Source: Sphingobacteriaceae bacterium (GTDB taxonomy: Bacteria; Bacteroidota; Bacteroidia; Sphingobacteriales; Sphingobacteriaceae). Taken from it: 64,000 nt of DNA. Below the pieces are notes generated by a model. The model was not told the DNA's origin and searched no databases. It saw only the letters and a list, made by a program, of their open reading frames with translations. The DNA is taken from the NCBI GenBank assembly GCA_947479815.1, contig CANKAT010000004.1, positions 1-64,000 on the forward strand, written 5' to 3'. This document shows, piece by piece, positions 1 to 8,753 of this stretch (its first letter is position 1; every line of letters starts with the position of its first letter). Both the position numbers and the translations under genes were made by a program.

Positions 1-485
1 CCTGTTAAACCTGTTAAACCTGTTGCTCCTACTGCACCAGCTGCTCCATCAACACCAAAAATACCTTGTGCACCTGTTGCTCCTGTTAAACCTGTATTAC
101 CTGTTAAACCAATAATACCTTGTGCACCTGTTAAACCTGTTAAACCTGTTGCTCCTGTTAAACCTGTTGAATTTCCACTCTGGAAATTCCAAACTCCATT
201 TTTACGAATATAAAGACCTGCATTAGGTGATTTTTGCAAATAGATCAGCATTCCATTTGAAGGATTTAGTGCATTGATGGCAATTGTATCGGTTAAACGG
301 GGCAACAAAAGCCCCTTTGTATCACTCTCCAATTCCAATAAGGATGACTTTTGAATCTGATTCGGATTAGTTCCTATTTTAACCTGGGCCTGGGAAATAC
401 TCATCCATAACAAGCTGGTCAGCATAACAAGTCCAATTTTTATCGGGACATTCTGAAATACGTTTTTGTATTTATTATTTTCCAT
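1..485 (-). CDS. Collagen-like repeat protein (3' part beyond the window)
   Basis: The frame opens with ATG at 485-483 and stays open to the window edge, so only the first 161 codons are seen. The product starts with a hydrophobic signal-like segment ending near SQAQ (about residues 18-40), followed by a short domain with [19 protein letters not shown], a stretch seen at the head of many secreted Bacteroidota surface proteins. From about residue 108 it becomes Gly-X-Y repeats, mostly GLT, GAT and GAQ, with 18 triplets before the edge. Collagen-like triple-helical stalks are known in bacterial surface fibres, so a surface role is inference. The ATG lies 4 bases after the PorP/SprF stop, so it is translated as part of the same operon. 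The near-identical 9-base repeats could slip in frame and change length. The C-terminus, and any sorting signal, is not visible. Confidence 0.8.
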
Positions 486-489
486 TTTA

Positions 490-1428
490 TTAAAAATATC
501 TAGGTGAGTGAGTTATCCGGTCGTAAGAGAACTCATATCTCAATATAACTTCATGCGACCCTTTTGAAATAATATTTAAACTGGATGTACTTTGATCATA
601 TGCATAACCTACCCTAAGTTCAGGCAGTATTTTAAAATCGATTATGCCTACCAATGCACTTTGATTTCGGTAGGAAAATCCTAAAGACAACATATCTGCA
701 ATCCATAAATTCGTGCTGATATCATAGGAAAGCGGACTTCCTACAACACCCCGTACTAAAAAAGATGGTTTTAAAAGTAGATCCCTGCTTATCTCAAAAA
801 CATAGCCGCTGCTAAAATAAATATGCATATTTAGCTTTAAATCATTAAAAGCAACTGTATTATTTGCTTTATTAAGACTGTTTCGGAACAGATTTGGAGA
901 GGAAAGACTTGCATAAAATTTATCTGTATTGAAAAATATTCCTGTTCCGAAATTTAATTTGGTCGTATTCACGTTCTGACTGAATGATGGATCATTCGAA
1001 TGGATCACATCTATCTTGCTATAATCTGTGTTGAAATGATAAGCCCCGACCTGTAAACCAAGCGCTAGAGTGGAATACGGTCCAGTTGGAATTTTAAATG
1101 AGTAAACTGCCTGGGCTCCAAGTGTTTTTGTGATCTCATCTCGGTCATCAACCAATTTTAAACCCACACCTACACGTTTATTGGAAATAGGCATATCAGC
1201 AGAAAGAAATGTGCTCTGAGGTGCATTTTTAAAGCCGACCCACTGCTTACGGAACATGGTCGTTACGTTTAAGGCATCCCTGAAACCGGCATAGGCAGGA
1301 TTGATCTCGAGCGTATTAAACAAATATCCAGAAAACAGGGGTAACTGCTGTCCGAAAAGGCTCTGCGTTCCGGATAGTAATACAGCCATCCAGATAAATA
1401 AATAAACCTTTAATTTAGTCCTGATCAT
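490..1428 (-). CDS. PorP/SprF family outer-membrane protein (type IX secretion)
   Basis: This 312-residue protein matches the PorP/SprF family by its opening after the signal peptide: [22 protein letters not shown], here split across residues 27-48, then [15 protein letters not shown] and [11 protein letters not shown]. The remainder alternates beta-strand-like segments and ends with an aromatic residue (RYF), as expected for an outer-membrane barrel. Family members work with the type IX secretion system, and SprF is needed for secretion of the adhesin SprB in Flavobacterium johnsoniae. Many Bacteroidota genomes pair one PorP/SprF paralogue with each type B cargo. Here the cargo gene lies directly upstream with 3 bases between them, and a collagen-like gene starts 4 bases downstream. 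Its likely job is surface delivery or anchoring of these neighbours. It is a paralogue rather than necessarily the core PorP. Confidence 0.88.
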
Positions 1429-1431
1429 ATT

Positions 1432-2754
1432 CTACCTGTTTATTATGAAATAACCTATAATAGGTTTCGAGTCATTAAAATTCAAAATATAGTAATAGGT
1501 TCCATCAGGAAGCTCATTGGTAACCAATCCCTTTTGATTTCCAAACCCATTAAAATTGTTCTTATAATTAGCATCCCTGAAAACCAAACTTTGCAACCTG
1601 TTATAAATATCTATACTTACTTTATCTGTAAGTTTAAGATTTTCAATTATAAACCTGTCATTCAGACCATCATTATTTGGTGATATACCATTTGGAATTC
1701 TCAAACCGTAAATCGCATTACTTTTCATTACTGATTTTGAAAAATACTCATTCAAATAAAGCCCACTTATATTTGTACGTGAACTGACAAAAGCATTCAG
1801 GATGGAATTACCTGAAGTTATTACTCCCGGGGTTAGACCAGTAGCAGAAATTATATCCCAATTTTCTGTAATCGACTGGAATTTGCTAATAAAACTCTCA
1901 TTCCGGCGTATTGCAAATTGCGAACCTTCGTCGCTGATATTATGCTGAGTATTAAGAGTCAGTTTAGCATTAGGATCAACAAGATCTGATGAAAGATTCC
2001 AGGTCTTATTTACAAAATTATCATGCACATTGATTCCATAAATTGCCTTATCATACACATTTTCAAATACCCTTAATTTTAAATTTTGTGCAATCCCTAT
2101 ATAATTTAGAGAAGCTGGGGTATAGCTATCTACTGTTGTACCCACCGGAAACAAAATATTCTCCTGTTGCTTTCCTAAAGTACTTCTGATTAGAAACCCC
2201 CCATTAACACCCGTGCCGGTTACTATAAATTTCGATGCGTCATATCCGGTTATACTTGCCTTTGCTAGTATTAACGCATTTCTGTTATTCAAAATTAGAT
2301 GCCCACTTTCAAAATTCAGATTATTTCGAATCTTCAAATCTGAACCTTCGAGTATCACATTCTTAGAATTAGATAAACTAATATTGGGGAATCCTGAATT
2401 GGGCAGGGGATTATACGAGCTACTAATGTATTGTGAATATGAGGCTGTGCTGCCAAATATAAAATTTCCTCCCGTACCATCTACACCGCTTGAACTTTCA
2501 TCGGGCATAGAACTACCTGCTTTATTTTCCCAACGCTGACCCCAAAAATTAATCTTTGAGTCTTTGGTCGAAGCGAAAGATCCGGAATTACTTATATCGG
2601 AGTAAATGGAAACTTCCTCATCAGGATGAGCAGAAAAGGATTCGCCGGCATAAATTGACATTTGTATCCTTTCTTGACTATTTGCAAAAAAAGGCAGTGT
2701 CAGGCAAGCAATAAAATAGATTAAAAATCGGTATCTGTTAAATAGCAAAATCAT
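1432..2754 (-). CDS. Secreted protein with T9SS type B (gliding-motility-type) C-terminal sorting domain
   Basis: The 440-residue product has an N-terminal signal peptide (LIYFIACLTLPFFANSQ) and a C-terminal domain of about 85 residues (355-440) with the hallmarks of type B sorting signals: IPNGISPNNDGLNDRF, then VSIDIYNRLQSLVF, then LPDGTYYYILNF. The middle is rich in Ser, Asn and Gly and is beta-strand-like, with no domain I recognise. Type B proteins are exported through the type IX system and, in known cases, need a PorP/SprF partner. That partner is the next gene, 3 bases away. The receiver-domain gene ends 11 bases upstream. The protein is probably a surface component or scaffold for the collagen-like protein. 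Its binding partner cannot be inferred from sequence. Confidence 0.85.
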   Translation of the reverse strand: MILLFNRYRFLIYFIACLTLPFFANSQERIQMSIYAGESFSAHPDEEVSIYSDISNSGSFASTKDSKINFWGQRWENKAGSSMPDESSSGVDGTGGNFIFGSTASYSQYISSSYNPLPNSGFPNISLSNSKNVILEGSDLKIRNNLNFESGHLILNNRNALILAKASITGYDASKFIVTGTGVNGGFLIRSTLGKQQENILFPVGTTVDSYTPASLNYIGIAQNLKLRVFENVYDKAIYGINVHDNFVNKTWNLSSDLVDPNAKLTLNTQHNISDEGSQFAIRRNESFISKFQSITENWDIISATGLTPGVITSGNSILNAFVSSRTNISGLYLNEYFSKSVMKSNAIYGLRIPNGISPNNDGLNDRFIIENLKLTDKVSIDIYNRLQSLVFRDANYKNNFNGFGNQKGLVTNELPDGTYYYILNFNDSKPIIGYFIINR

Positions 2755-2765
2755 TGTATAAATAT

Positions 2766-3194
2766 TTAATATCCTGTACTTTGAATAAAAGGCAGGTTCA
2801 ATTTTTTCAACTCATCTTTCACCAAACTAATTTTATTGATAATACGTGTCATTTTATCATACATAAAATTGTCTTTAATTATGTAGTCATATGCGTCATA
2901 CTCAATCGCAGCAACAGATATATAAATATTTTGCTGACCCGAAACCATTATCACATAAATGCTGGGATTGTAGCGTTTTATTTTTTTTAAAACTTCCAAT
3001 CCTGTTATTCCATCCATGTTGTGATCCAAGAAAATAATATCTGGATTTTGATTTAGATTATTAAGGCAATCATTCCCATTACTGAAACATGTAATATTGC
3101 TGTAGTTTAGGTTTAACAAATATTGTTCCTGCATTTTTGCACAAAAAACATCGTCGTCTACTATAAAAAAATTGAATATATTTTGATTTTGCAT
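2766..3194 (-). CDS. Stand-alone response-regulator receiver domain
   Basis: This 142-residue protein is one CheY-like receiver domain with no output domain. It has the acidic triad start FIVDDD at 10-15, the phospho-acceptor D57 in IIFLDHNMDG, a Ser in VMVSGQ and the conserved Lys near YDYIIKDN. Its partner kinase is probably the hybrid histidine kinase encoded about 450 bases upstream on the same strand, whose HPt domain could hand phosphate to it; this is inferred from proximity. It heads an operon with a type B T9SS cargo, a PorP/SprF protein and a collagen-like protein (gaps of 11, 3 and 4 bases). Placing a receiver-only gene at the head of a surface-structure operon suggests control of assembly or activity by protein contact rather than DNA binding. 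An inverted repeat overlaps its start codon. Confidence 0.85.
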   Translation of the reverse strand: MQNQNIFNFFIVDDDVFCAKMQEQYLLNLNYSNITCFSNGNDCLNNLNQNPDIIFLDHNMDGITGLEVLKKIKRYNPSIYVIMVSGQQNIYISVAAIEYDAYDYIIKDNFMYDKMTRIINKISLVKDELKKLNLPFIQSTGY

Positions 3195-3640: not shown

Positions 3641-6520
3641 TTAGTGTAATTCATTTTTCTGAAGCTGGGAAATTACAAGTTGTAATGTATTTTTTACCAA
3701 CGTATAAATACCTGTAATTTCCACTTTATTTTGTGATTCTTTTGCTATTTTTTCTAAAATTTTCATTTGACTCTGAATAGACAGAACACCCATGTTAGCT
3801 GTGCTTGGTCTAATTTCATGGATTAATTTGCTTATTTCCAGAAAATCATTTGATACTAACGCTGCATCTATTTTTTCAATAGTTGCGATTGTTTGTTCCA
3901 CAAAGACACCGACCATTTTAAGCACAAATTCTTCACTACCTCTACTCGAATTGCGAAGAACATTCAAATTATAAAGGGGTTGATTTGGGTTCATCTCATT
4001 ATCTAAAGATGGAATACCATTTTTATTTATAGTGTGTTTTACAATAGTCTGTAGTAAAACTTTTTCTTGAAAAGGTTTTATCACATAATCGTTCATGCCA
4101 GCTTCCTTGCATTCTTTAAGTTTTGTTTTAAAGGCATTCGCCGTAAGTGCAATTATGGGAGTCGAAAGTTTTAATTCTTTTCTAATAACTTTTGTAGCTT
4201 CAATACCATCCATTTTTGGCATTTGAATATCCATAAGAATGAGGTCGAAGTGCTGTGCTTTTAAAATTTCAAGTGCATCCAAACCATTTTCAGCCTCCGT
4301 TACATTACAATTAAAATATTGTAATGAGCTTTGAATAACCATTCTATTAATTTCATTATCTTCAACCAATAAAATAGACAAACCATCAAGGTTAAAATTA
4401 ATTTCAGTAGGTAATTTTATCACATTTTCTATATTTCCTTTTTTAAGATTAAGCTTAACATGAATGGTGGTTCCTATATTCTTTTCACTTTCAATTTCAA
4501 TTTCCCCACCCATCAAATTAACTAATTCTTTAGTAATAGTCATTCCCAAACCGGTTCCGCCATATTTTCGGGTAATACTTTTATCTTCCTGTGAAAATTT
4601 ATCAAAAATTAATTTCGCATATTTTGGTTCCATGCCTATTCCTGTATCAGCTACAGAAATATGTATTATTTGAGAATTATTACTATCAGAAAGCAGCTCG
4701 CAGCTAACGTGAATGTTACCTTTTTGAGTAAATTGTAAGGCATTTCCTATAAGGTTAAAAAGTATTTCTTCAAGGCGCAAAGAATCTCCCTCGAATACTT
4801 TATTTACCTTGTCGGAAATGAAAGTAGTCAACTTGATTTCTTTTTGTTTGGCTTTTAAATCAAGTACTTTATGCACATTGTTTAGGGAATCTTCAATAAA
4901 AAAGTCTTTCAATTCCAGTACTATTTCGCCAGCTTCTATTTTTGAAAGGTCTAAAATATTATTGAGCATAGCCATTAAATGCTTAGAAGCGATTGAACTG
5001 TTATCTATATATGTTTTTTGAAGACCAGAAAGTTCTTGTTTTTCCAACGCCCTTAAAAACCCAATAATAGCATTCAATGGCGTTCTTATTTCATGACTCA
5101 TATTTGCTAAAAAAGATTCCTTGGCTTTTGAAACTTCTAGGGCTAAGTTTTTCTTTTCCGTTACGTCCTGCATGGCGCCTATCATCCGTATAAGTGTGTC
5201 GGTTTCATTATATATAAAAAACACCCTGTCATTTATATGTTTATACGTACCATCCGCACACCGGTACTGGTATTCCATCTCTATGGTATTATATTTTTTG
5301 TCACAGGCCTCATTTATTCTTGCAGAAACTACCGGATGATCAACAGGGTGAATATTATTTTTCCACCAGTTAGGATCATGATTTACTTCTTGATTTTCGT
5401 AGCCAAACATTTTTGAAATCCCCTCATTATAATTCGTCCTGTTATTTAAAATGTCGCAATCCCAGATGGTATCGCTGGTAGCACGGGCAAGAATATCATA
5501 CCGTTCATGAACTATGCGTATTTTTTCTTCTCCAATTTTGATAGCGGTTATATCACGTGCAACTGCGTAAAGTTTTCCGCTGACAGGATTGGGAGTTGCA
5601 TTCCAAACAAACCACAAATAATTTCCATCATTTTTACGATACCTGTTCTCAAAATTTATAGTTTTAGCGCCGCTTTTCAGTTTCTTAATTTCTTTTAGGG
5701 TTAAATCAATATCATCAGGATGTACGAAATTCAGAAATTGACTTTCGAGCAATTCTGTTTTTGAATATCCTAATACCTTTTCAAAATTTGTATTAACGAC
5801 TTCGAAATAACCCTGCATATTTGCAATGCACACAAAGTTAGCTGTGTTGTAAAAAAAATATTGGTATTCAAGTAGTTTTTCTTCTAAATGCTCTCGTCTT
5901 TTGTAATTCTTAATAAATAAAAATACGCTGATGCATGCAATTACTATTGCCAGAATGATTTTAACAATAACAATTTTAATTATTGTGGATATTATTTGAT
6001 TAGCGGTATATACTCTTTCGCTAAGCAATTTTTTTTCGTTTCTGATAAACTTATCAAATATGATTATGACATCCTCCATTAAATCTATACCCTTACCTGT
6101 TTTGATTATCTGTATGGCCAATCCAGTCTCTTTTTTTTGCATGACTGATGAAATTTCTTTTGAAAAATCATACTTTAAATTAACTGCATGATATAAAGAA
6201 TCCAATAAAACCTGCTGCGAGGGATTATCTTTCTTTAAATTTTTTAACTTTAAAAAGGTGTTTTCTAATTTTTCGGAATCCTCTTGAAAGTATTTTAACA
6301 ATCGTACATTCCCTGTAATTACATACCCTCTCACTGTTGATTCTGAATTAAGAATATCTATTAACATACTTCTTGTTTCAGATATCACAGTTTGAGTATT
6401 GGTTACCCGATCAAATGCTTTTCTGTAAGAATTAATACTTATGACTAAATAGATGCCAAGGATACTTAGGCTAGCAATGCCTATACAAAATGCTAGTATG
6501 CTTTTTTTTATTTGGTTCAT
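3641..6520 (-). CDS. Hybrid sensor histidine kinase (CHASE3-PAS-PAS-HisKA-HATPase-REC-HPt)
   Basis: The 959-residue inner-membrane kinase has two transmembrane segments (about 8-28 and 172-203) around a helical periplasmic region of CHASE3 type, recognised by STVRGYVITG. Two PAS domains follow (about 215-330 and 335-455), the second followed by a PAC-like DGTYKHINDR. HisKA has the phospho-acceptor H476 in ANMSHEIRTPLNAI. The ATPase domain has N and G boxes (LIGNALQFT, DTGIGM, GGTGLGM). A receiver domain has D764 in LILMDIQMPKMDG, and the C-terminal HPt domain has H901 in HEIRPSTANMG. The His-Asp-His chain within one protein implies export of phosphate to a separate receiver. Candidates are the stand-alone receiver downstream and the sigma-54 regulator upstream, both on the same strand. 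The stimulus is unknown. Confidence 0.92.
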   Translation of the reverse strand: MNQIKKSILAFCIGIASLSILGIYLVISINSYRKAFDRVTNTQTVISETRSMLIDILNSESTVRGYVITGNVRLLKYFQEDSEKLENTFLKLKNLKKDNPSQQVLLDSLYHAVNLKYDFSKEISSVMQKKETGLAIQIIKTGKGIDLMEDVIIIFDKFIRNEKKLLSERVYTANQIISTIIKIVIVKIILAIVIACISVFLFIKNYKRREHLEEKLLEYQYFFYNTANFVCIANMQGYFEVVNTNFEKVLGYSKTELLESQFLNFVHPDDIDLTLKEIKKLKSGAKTINFENRYRKNDGNYLWFVWNATPNPVSGKLYAVARDITAIKIGEEKIRIVHERYDILARATSDTIWDCDILNNRTNYNEGISKMFGYENQEVNHDPNWWKNNIHPVDHPVVSARINEACDKKYNTIEMEYQYRCADGTYKHINDRVFFIYNETDTLIRMIGAMQDVTEKKNLALEVSKAKESFLANMSHEIRTPLNAIIGFLRALEKQELSGLQKTYIDNSSIASKHLMAMLNNILDLSKIEAGEIVLELKDFFIEDSLNNVHKVLDLKAKQKEIKLTTFISDKVNKVFEGDSLRLEEILFNLIGNALQFTQKGNIHVSCELLSDSNNSQIIHISVADTGIGMEPKYAKLIFDKFSQEDKSITRKYGGTGLGMTITKELVNLMGGEIEIESEKNIGTTIHVKLNLKKGNIENVIKLPTEINFNLDGLSILLVEDNEINRMVIQSSLQYFNCNVTEAENGLDALEILKAQHFDLILMDIQMPKMDGIEATKVIRKELKLSTPIIALTANAFKTKLKECKEAGMNDYVIKPFQEKVLLQTIVKHTINKNGIPSLDNEMNPNQPLYNLNVLRNSSRGSEEFVLKMVGVFVEQTIATIEKIDAALVSNDFLEISKLIHEIRPSTANMGVLSIQSQMKILEKIAKESQNKVEITGIYTLVKNTLQLVISQLQKNELH

Positions 6521-6695
6521 TTTTATTTATTTATCTATTTAAAAAGCCAAATAAGAATGATTCACCGTCTGAATAAAATCATTAAGTACAGTATTATCCT
6601 GGCGACCATATTAGAAATACTACTGAGATTGTTTTTGTAAAAGCTGGTGCAATTCCATATTTTCACTTTTCAATTAAAAAGTTGAATTGATATGT

Positions 6696-8045
6696 TTATT
6701 TGGTGTTTTCTGAAGATTTAACTAAATTATAAATGGTTGATTTTCCGATATCTAGCTTTTTTGCAGTTTTTAATATATCATTATTGTTCTTTTTTAAATA
6801 ATGAGCTATAATCTCGGCAGTATATTCTTTTAAAGTCTTTTCTTCTGACAAGAAAAAATCTGTGGTATTTATATTATTAAAGGTAAGGTCATCTGCAAAA
6901 ATTTCTTTACCATCGCTCATAACACAAGCTAAATCGATAACCGATTTTAATTCTCGAATATTACCTGGAAAGGGGTATGTTATTAGTTTATCTTTAGCCT
7001 CCTTTGACAAGGATATTGCCTTCATTTTATTATACTTAATGAATAAATCAATAAAATATTTTGCTAATAATAAAATATCATTTCCTCTTTCTCTTAAAGG
7101 GGGCAAATCAATTGGTAAACCCATAATTCTATAGTATAAATCTTCTCTAAAATTTCCTTTTTTTACTTCTTGAGCCAAATCTTTATGCGTAGCTATTATT
7201 AATCGGGCATCAAATTTTATTTTAGCAGTACCGCCTAAACGAACCACTTCTCTTTCTTGCAAAACTCTTAGTAATTTACTCTGAAGATTTAAATCTAATT
7301 CAGCAATTTCATCTAAAAAGATGGTTCCTCCATTGGCTTGCTCAAATTTTCCGATATTTCTGGTATTGGCCCCTGTAAAAGCTCCTACTTCATGACCAAA
7401 AAATTCACTTTCCATTAACCCTTTAGGAATTGCAGCCATATTTATGGCTATAAAAGGTTTGTTTTTCCTTTCTGAATTATAGTGAATAGCTTTAGCAACA
7501 ACTTCTTTTCCGGTTCCAGTCTCTCCAGTTATTGAGACATTAATATTAGAATTAATAGATTTATTTACTTTATTAAAAACTTTTTTTATGGCATCACTTT
7601 GCCCAATTATCGTTTTTTCGAAACTATATATTTGTTCTAATTCTTCTTTTAATTCTTCTACTTGATTTACTAAATCAAGGTTTTCTCTAATTTTAATGAT
7701 TGCATTCCAAAGCAAGTCTTTTGTGTGTTCACTTTTGACAATGTAATCTTTGGCTCCAGCTTTTAAAAAGTTAACAGCAATCTGTATTTCCTCCTGGCCA
7801 CTAATGATTATAATTGGGATTTTATTATTTGTTTCCTGAATTTTTGCCATCAACTTATTACCTGTAATGTCCGGCAATCCAAAATCTAAACAAATGATAT
7901 CTGGTTTTAGATATAAATTATTTAAACACTCTTTACCAGTTTTAAAAAGATGGATATCAAACTCTGGATTTAGCTTTAAATAATATTTTAAAGCCTCTCC
8001 AAAGTAAGTATCATCTTCAACGAGGAAAATTTTCAATATGGCCAT
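6696..8045 (-). CDS. Sigma-54-dependent response regulator (NtrC family)
   Basis: The architecture is receiver, AAA+ and Fis-type DNA-binding domain. The receiver starts ILKIFLVEDD and has D54 in IICLDFGLPDITG. The AAA+ domain has Walker A GETGTGKE at 174-181, the sigma-54 contact loop GAFTGA, Walker B GGTIFLDEIAEL and an arginine-finger region REDLYYR. The C-terminus carries a helix-turn-helix (LKTAKKLDIGKSTIYNLV). It should activate RNA polymerase-sigma54 when phosphorylated. I chose the ATG at 8045, which puts the receiver start at residue 5; an in-frame ATG at 8084 would add 13 residues with no family counterpart. The hybrid kinase lies downstream on the same strand, about 175 bases away. 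The target promoters are not evident in this window. Confidence 0.92.
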   Translation of the reverse strand: MAILKIFLVEDDTYFGEALKYYLKLNPEFDIHLFKTGKECLNNLYLKPDIICLDFGLPDITGNKLMAKIQETNNKIPIIIISGQEEIQIAVNFLKAGAKDYIVKSEHTKDLLWNAIIKIRENLDLVNQVEELKEELEQIYSFEKTIIGQSDAIKKVFNKVNKSINSNINVSITGETGTGKEVVAKAIHYNSERKNKPFIAINMAAIPKGLMESEFFGHEVGAFTGANTRNIGKFEQANGGTIFLDEIAELDLNLQSKLLRVLQEREVVRLGGTAKIKFDARLIIATHKDLAQEVKKGNFREDLYYRIMGLPIDLPPLRERGNDILLLAKYFIDLFIKYNKMKAISLSKEAKDKLITYPFPGNIRELKSVIDLACVMSDGKEIFADDLTFNNINTTDFFLSEEKTLKEYTAEIIAHYLKKNNNDILKTAKKLDIGKSTIYNLVKSSENTK

Positions 8046-8753
8046 CCATTTATAATTTAGGAGAGTATTATAGTATATCTTCAAAATAGTATGTCATACA
8101 ACTAAATTGAAGTAACTCTTAAGGAGTGTTTTCGATTAAATCAAAGCTAACTTATTTAATTTACCATTGTTGGAATTTCTTCTTTTTAGTTTTTCATAAT
8201 CCTCATTTATTTTTAACTAATTCAATCCACTTTTTGATGACGATTTACAACGATTATTTACACTATATGCTATTACCTTAAAGGCTCTAAAACAGCCCTT
8301 CAGGCAACTTATTTTATGTTGCTTGAATACTGCAATTCAACAAGATAAAGTCATTTAAATGGCCTTATTTAAGGTCTGCTCTTTTAATCAACTGTTTATT
8401 ATTCATTTATTAGATGGCTTGCGTTTAGGCAATATTCAGGTTTTGGATAGAGGGGTTATCCCAATAAGATTATAGCATCTAAATATTATTTGCTAGTAGC
8501 TAGCGAGTAGTCAAAGCCTATCCAAAGTTGTTATTCAGAAAATGTGTATGGCAATTGTTTCCACGTGAAATATGATTATTAAATAGACTTGAAGGGTACG
8601 GGGTCAAGCATTTTGAATTCTTCTCAAATAACCAACATCCCTATTAACACTATCATCACAGTTGTATATAATGGCAAACAATTTTGCTGATACTCCAAGT
8701 TAATTATTGGTTAAACTGCTTTAAAGGATTTTTATTGGGTTGATTTGTGCTGC
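8046..8753. other. Long intergenic region without a visible gene
   Basis: About 700 AT-rich bases lie between mnmE and the sigma-54 regulator, both on the minus strand. I see no open frame of note and no tRNA-like clover leaf. One hairpin is present (CAGGCAAC at 8301-8308 with GTTGCTTG at 8318-8325, one G-T pair). It should contain the mnmE 3' end and the promoter of the regulator. A short RNA cannot be excluded. Confidence 0.4.

Follow-up and report, generated by a model that had tools for sequence, protein, structure and literature searches.

The window analysed here is a stretch of 64,000 nucleotides that makes up the start of contig C4 (CANKAT010000004.1), taken from its first base, in an assembly of 157 contigs (GCA_947479815.1) from a Sphingobacteriaceae bacterium. 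Four genes follow one another at this end of it. They encode a stand-alone receiver domain, a type B cargo of the type IX secretion system (T9SS), an outer-membrane carrier of the PorP/SprF kind and a collagen-like fibre cut by the contig end. A preliminary description had proposed this arrangement, with gaps of 11, 3 and 4 bases; open reading frames, together with Pfam and NCBIfam, confirm the genes and the gaps on the minus strand. We argue below that the locus is, on balance, one surface-fibre locus of the family Sphingobacteriaceae, in which the cargo, held by PorP, probably displays on the cell surface a fibre that begins with a conserved head domain. The features are as follows:

1432 to 2754, minus strand: type B T9SS cargo, the proposed fibre adaptor; 440 residues, with a signal peptide recognised by eye
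1729 to 2673, minus strand: N-terminal domain of the cargo (alignment A3)
490 to 1428, minus strand: PorP/SprF-like outer-membrane carrier; 312 residues, no cysteine
1 to 485 (frame 3 to 485), minus strand: collagen-like fibre gene; 161 N-terminal residues, open at the 3′ end
174 to 389, minus strand: conserved head domain of the fibre; 72 residues
3 to 164, minus strand: collagen-like stalk; 18 Gly-X-Y triplets
2766 to 3194, minus strand: stand-alone receiver gene; 142 residues, Response_reg in Pfam with E 6.7e-21

The C-terminus of the cargo is a type IX sorting signal of the CHU_C family (residues 352-432; E 4.4e-21, 75.2 bits for a Pfam cut-off of 27), and the protein also matches NCBIfam TIGR04131 at 42 bits (cut-off 35). 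The next gene belongs to PF11751, PorP_SprF (E 3.1e-73), and to TIGR03519 (254 bits, cut-off 90.55). SprA, the translocon of the system, is encoded in the same genome, on contig C1 (PF14349, E 3.9e-154). Judged by its sorting domain, by gene order and by the presence of SprA, the cargo is a predicted type B T9SS substrate with its cognate PorP/SprF gene directly downstream. This pairing, which the preliminary description had called known, is indeed published: in the excerpts available of the papers cited here and below, type B proteins attach to partners of the PorP kind (PMC9143113), and each requires a cognate shuttle (PMC12618676). The SprA N-terminal family has one more, weaker match in the genome, at G000:C58:16996-20139.

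The collagen-like gene is incomplete, as had been remarked from the outset; the contig begins inside it, within tandem repeats of 9, 18, 27 and 54 bp, so that the gene is cut by the assembly. Beyond base 1, where the preliminary description had advised looking for a sorting domain, the contig offers nothing to read. Its visible product consists of a signal peptide (by eye), the 72-residue head, for which no Pfam family was found, and the stalk, with 18 uninterrupted Gly-X-Y triplets and no proline. The stalk matches the Pfam Collagen family (E 2.7e-8, 33.9 bits, cut-off 27.2), and this uninterrupted run above the family cut-off lets us class the product as a predicted bacterial collagen-like protein. 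The Pfam collagen model has no other match anywhere in this genome, and the complete fibre of a relative (L045), used as a query, found no separate C-terminal fibre piece there. Elsewhere, too, fibre genes with a head repeatedly lie at contig ends (L162-L167, L169-L173, G539:C1), and fibre repeats seem to break draft assemblies.

What is constant at this locus becomes apparent in the genus, which we took as Daejeonella. When the cargo was compared with 100 relatives, 16 full-length same-genus loci were recovered, eight with 55-57% identity and eight with 41-45%, one of which (G019:C10) carries an internal TAG; the cargo domain is present in 12 of the 20 genomes of the genus. A scan of genome contigs with the cargo sequence alone found nothing, and one with the cargo alignment gave 10 loci, of which eight are close homologues of the cargo. 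In 15 of the 16 same-genus loci, L055 being the exception, the cargo is followed by porP and a head-bearing gene, and the heads are 62-82% identical to that of the window. Cargo, porP and head-bearing gene are a conserved module. Between porP and the head gene there are 3-5 bases in the first group (the two overlap in L056 through start choice) and 87-733 in the second, to which belongs a further, cut locus (L043) of the window's own genome.

Behind this conserved head the stalk turns over. Head proteins of the first group have 254-270 residues, and about 800 bases further on a giant tail-fibre-like protein is encoded whose head resembles theirs; those of the second group are single proteins of 401 to 2,338 residues with other repeats. 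Because of this variation none of the relatives in the genus has collagen: a run of six Gly-X-Y triplets occurs in none of the same-genus relatives' head proteins. The preliminary description had set the collagen-like gene and the receiver apart as additions to a known pair. This stands in part only, for the head-bearing third gene is core to the module; the collagen stalk is indeed unusual in the genus, and the receiver is a local addition. A gene of 701 codons lies upstream in 10 of the 16 same-genus loci (in L045 Pfam makes it elongation factor G). Two places look as if the module were being lost, namely L055:5918-7234 (G011), a cargo without porP or head gene, and L062:2084-2428 (G007), where a cargo remnant of 114 residues sits in the same setting.

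Does the head keep company with PorP outside the genus? A head profile (A4), to which this genus contributed 17 heads and G095 one, was searched in 22 genomes of other genera, 17 chosen for holding the cargo domain and 5 chosen without it. It gave 42 matches in 19 of the 22 genomes. For 28 of them a PorP gene is 15 kb or less away (8.1 kb or less for 24); another 12 are too close to a contig end, at 3 kb or less, to be judged. Two remain: that of G557:C1 adjoins a cargo cut by the contig end, and that of G022:C90 (L168) is followed after 18 bases by a type B gene, with no PorP. Uniform placement would put about 7% of the matches near PorP; the naive tail probability, 2e-22, overstates the certainty because the genomes are related and matches share loci, and counted by locus bins 22 of 36 are near PorP. 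The five genomes chosen without cargo matches yielded two heads (G020, G025), each with a PorP gene at 4.4 kb or less.

The cargo domain itself (A3, threshold 1e-8) matches 35 of 201 genomes of the family and 13 of 395 drawn from the phylum, the window's own genome included. The usual order in other genera is one or several head-bearing fibres, often another adhesin, the type B cargo, PorP, and a protein of about 650 residues with OmpA, PD40 and TPR parts. The association of cargo, porP and third gene, suspected initially from one genome, recurs beyond the genus, in another gene order. Outside the family, two loci (L060, L154) have the cargo domain beside head-bearing fibres, and the stretch read contains no PorP gene. 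In one of the L154 cargos a type A signal scores above the cut-off (36.2 bits), and that of L060 reaches 26.9 for a cut-off of 27. The link between cargo and head holds also when the C-terminal signal is of type A, which points to cargo and fibre as the functional pair, with PorP serving its type B version. At L125 the cargo lies 3 bases behind a fibre-like frame; neither head nor signal was recognised at this locus.

These foreign loci also show a feature of their own. A shared tail, TNP[MSG]LPS, ends otherwise different adhesin-like proteins encoded directly upstream of the type B cargo, in 11 of 25 rows, the 11 amounting to 10 distinct genes (L132, with the same gene in L174, L133, L138, L139, L140, L141, L142, L144, L146 and L151). 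L147 has a similar tail, and so have three neighbouring L167 genes. It is possibly a short docking or sorting tag. At three places (L148:1885-5679, L130:5330-6457, L143:1944-8060) the C-terminus of a large or adhesin-like protein carries a head-like domain, and the adjoining protein is a small one, of 167-188 residues, with head-like domains.

Collagen, rare in the genus, is common behind the head in other genera of the family. A Gly-X-Y run of at least six triplets is present in the head-bearing frame at 16 of 36 head loci, some of which are contig ends. Four loci from three genera, found through their heads only (L157, L158, L160 and L161), display, almost without gaps, a fibre gene, a type B gene of about 400 codons, PorP and a PorE-like gene. 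Their longest runs have 115, 14, 89 and 115 triplets respectively, with Pfam collagen E-values of 1.2e-73, 9.2e-8, 6.8e-45 and 9e-65. The type B proteins of these four loci were missed by the cargo hidden Markov model; aligned with the cargo by hhalign they give 94% (E 1.5e-7, 125 columns), and we take them as remote homologues of the window cargo. At L159 and L168 the order is head, a match to carbohydrate-binding module 5/12, collagen, then a type B gene of about 700 codons. The head-bearing collagen protein of L159 (8618-10042, in a Mucilaginibacter-like genus, g4), beside type B and PorP genes, ends in a domain related to exosporium BclB (TIGR03721, 182.7 bits, cut-off 93.15).

We can now spell out how such a locus might work. 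The T9SS translocon would export the type B cargo, and the cognate PorP/SprF barrel would take it over and keep it at the outer membrane. There the cargo would act as an adaptor that displays a second secreted protein, the fibre. This fibre would have three parts: at its N-terminus a head of about 72 residues that stays constant, then a stalk that can be exchanged, and at its C-terminus a tip that varies. The stalk is collagen in the window, a short linker or tail-fibre-like repeats in relatives. The head presumably binds the cargo; the fibre is likely to stand at the cell surface and to have an adhesive role there, anchored in place, we believe, and not gliding. Related bacteria combine the cargo and its carrier with many different fibres, and this recurrence suggests a class of bacterial surface fibre not yet described as such.

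Several observations weigh against this model. A broader head profile, A5, has seven of its nine matches in the window's own genome on contigs without a PorP match, so that head-like domains also occur elsewhere. A head-bearing frame was present, within the stretch read, in 16 of the 26 family loci fetched outside the genus. Among the ten headless ones, L132 gains a head when read further (as L174), and in seven (L131, L139, L140, L141, L142, L151, L153) a frame runs off the stretch or the contig; this leaves L134 and L150, with no head and no frame running off. Outside the family the head was present in two of seven cargo loci, L060 and L154. The complete fibre is unavailable from this genome, its gene being cut at the contig end, and a proline-free stalk may make a weak triple helix.

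The most serious alternative, if a rather unlikely one, is that the fibre works on its own, as a surface or matrix protein transcribed from the same promoter as the cargo/PorP pair; the linkage would then reflect co-expression and not a complex. The head-like domains found away from PorP in this genome would fit it, as would the 87 to 733 bases that separate porP from the head gene in the second Daejeonella group. Co-expression alone explains less well a linkage that persists across several genera while gene order and signal type differ.

How would the fibre cross the outer membrane? No Pfam T9SS signal was found in the relatives' complete fibres scanned. Relatives' fibres have a beta-rich end domain of about 80 residues, for which seven strands are predicted at modest confidence (pLDDT about 55-74). 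Type A signals are described as seven-stranded (PMC12618676), and one might imagine that the fibre is a parallel substrate of the same PorP, with its own unrecognised T9SS signal in that domain. We hold this for unlikely: besides the missing Pfam signal, profile comparison of the end domain (A7, 14 fibres) with the type A and type B signals of these loci gave 0.1 and 0.2% probability, and several fibres end in other domains. Structure prediction was poor (mean pLDDT 41.7 for the cargo, 49.9 for the 254-residue fibre protein). Foldseek returned no match with E below 0.001; the best was at 0.067, and its top rows mix phage fibre or tailspike proteins with trimeric enzymes. A sequence search of the PDB gave no match for PorP at 0.01, and for cargo and fibre chance-level rows only. 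Our preferred guess is that the fibre, with a signal peptide and, in relatives, without a T9SS signal, crosses the outer membrane by co-export with the cargo; it may also take yet another path. A bolder extension, which we put forward tentatively as a possibility somewhat against the odds, would make of such fibres a new class of T9SS clients, devoid of T9SS signal, exported and held at the surface only via a type B adaptor and a PorP barrel. It would include the adhesins of other genera with the TNPMLPS-like tail, and the T9SS would then build multi-subunit fibres with exchangeable stalks and tips.

The receiver gene, at the other end of the set, had led the preliminary description to propose a regulated surface fibre. 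That the four genes form one regulated operon, with the receiver in control of how the fibre is expressed or assembled, is an improbable proposal. The receiver does lie 11 bases from the cargo gene, on the same strand, and upstream of it (window 3641-8084) are found a hybrid histidine kinase (CHASE3, PAS, HisKA, receiver) and a sigma-54 response regulator. Yet a search of frames found no receiver homologue in any of the 16 same-genus cargo loci, so that a conserved four-gene order finds no support; over all fetched loci there was one weak, unrelated receiver hit (L154, 25% identity). Furthermore, 446 bases separate the receiver from the kinase gene, a promoter and terminator scan did not rise above shuffles, and a Bacteroidota promoter pattern had no match. 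Since the receiver is not part of the conserved module, what speaks for regulation is the 11-base gap in a single genome. The receiver is 34% identical over 138 residues to that of the sigma-54 regulator at 6696-8084, and we count it with the neighbouring kinase/sigma-54 cluster, as a local addition. Read-through from it into the cargo gene is possible, and conservation gives this no support. As a candidate PorX it was rejected, the match (61.5 bits, cut-off 300) covering positions 4-102 of a model of 513, not its full length.

Whether the fibre is fixed or mobile is a question for its carrier. PorE-containing operons are proposed as static anchors, and moving substrates are not encoded alongside PorE-like genes (PMC12618676). 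The protein of about 650 residues met in other genera scores, in the sample of L133, 433 bits for the CHU_0125 OmpA-like model (cut-off 620) and 370 bits for T9SS_PorE (cut-off 600); as both scores are below cut-off, we call it PorE-like and do not name it PorE. Its gene is present in 21 of 34 other-genus loci and beside none of the 17 Daejeonella loci read, the window contig ending in the third gene. SprF reaches the gliding track via a Cys-x-Cys motif in its C-terminal tail (PMC12635249); five PorPs of the module have a single cysteine near their end. That the cargo is a gliding adhesin of the SprB/SprF kind, moved on that track, is very improbable: it is a type B cargo with a PorP, and the Daejeonella stretches, like those of moving substrates (PMC12618676), have no PorE-like gene, but the SprF track motif (PMC12635249) occurs in none of 46 module PorP rows (45 distinct, L174 repeating L132) and the window PorP is free of cysteine. 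We expect a static display of the fibre, with the caveat that the Daejeonella stretches are devoid of a PorE-like gene.

The cited papers, in their available excerpts, regard type B/PorP pairs chiefly as putative adhesins and the carriers of these. A subset of these pairs now gains a separately encoded client, fibres that are often collagen-like, in which the head is constant and stalk and tip change. Should the fibre depend on the cargo for reaching the surface, then the T9SS exports proteins without its known signals, and secretome predictions made from C-terminal domains miss such fibres. Among the matches listed from the open-access literature (subscription papers being largely outside its scope), no paper links collagen-like proteins with T9SS or PorP; those with collagen and T9SS terms together were, as far as their excerpts go, PMC12560110, PMC5742166 (in reference titles) and PMC9456077 (a human gene). 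Taken singly, the parts are of known kinds; what appears to be new is their combination, and that it recurs.

Four known systems help to place this locus. Phage tail fibres resemble it in that the fibre repeat stalks match tail-fibre families of PHROGs, but here there is a signal peptide (by eye), no phage gene lies in the module, and the matches are confined to repeats. A phage origin was rejected, with repeat matches, three weak PHROG hits for the end domain and three weak viral contigs as its only traces, and no DNA match in 50,697 phage records. The collagen-like adhesins Scl, Lcl and BclB share with the fibres of these loci a Gly-X-Y stalk placed between end domains; they differ in that matches to the Scl and Lcl models stay below their cut-offs, and that a Bacteroidota head domain and T9SS partner genes are found here. 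SprB/SprF also unites a type B adhesin with a PorP/SprF carrier (PMC12635249, excerpts), whereas the PorPs of the module lack the Cys-x-Cys tail and the cargo has only 440 residues. There are also the PorE-PorP-PG1035 complex of Porphyromonas gingivalis and type B/SprF-like pairs such as Fjoh_3952/3951 of Flavobacterium johnsoniae, where, from what is available of PMC9143113 and PMC12618676, a type B cargo comes directly before a PorP-like carrier. The likeness to PorE-PorP-PG1035 extends, in other Sphingobacteriaceae, to a PorE-like gene that follows, which is missing beside the Daejeonella loci read. To both of these systems the gene set described here adds a separate head-bearing fibre, with a stalk of collagen or of another kind.

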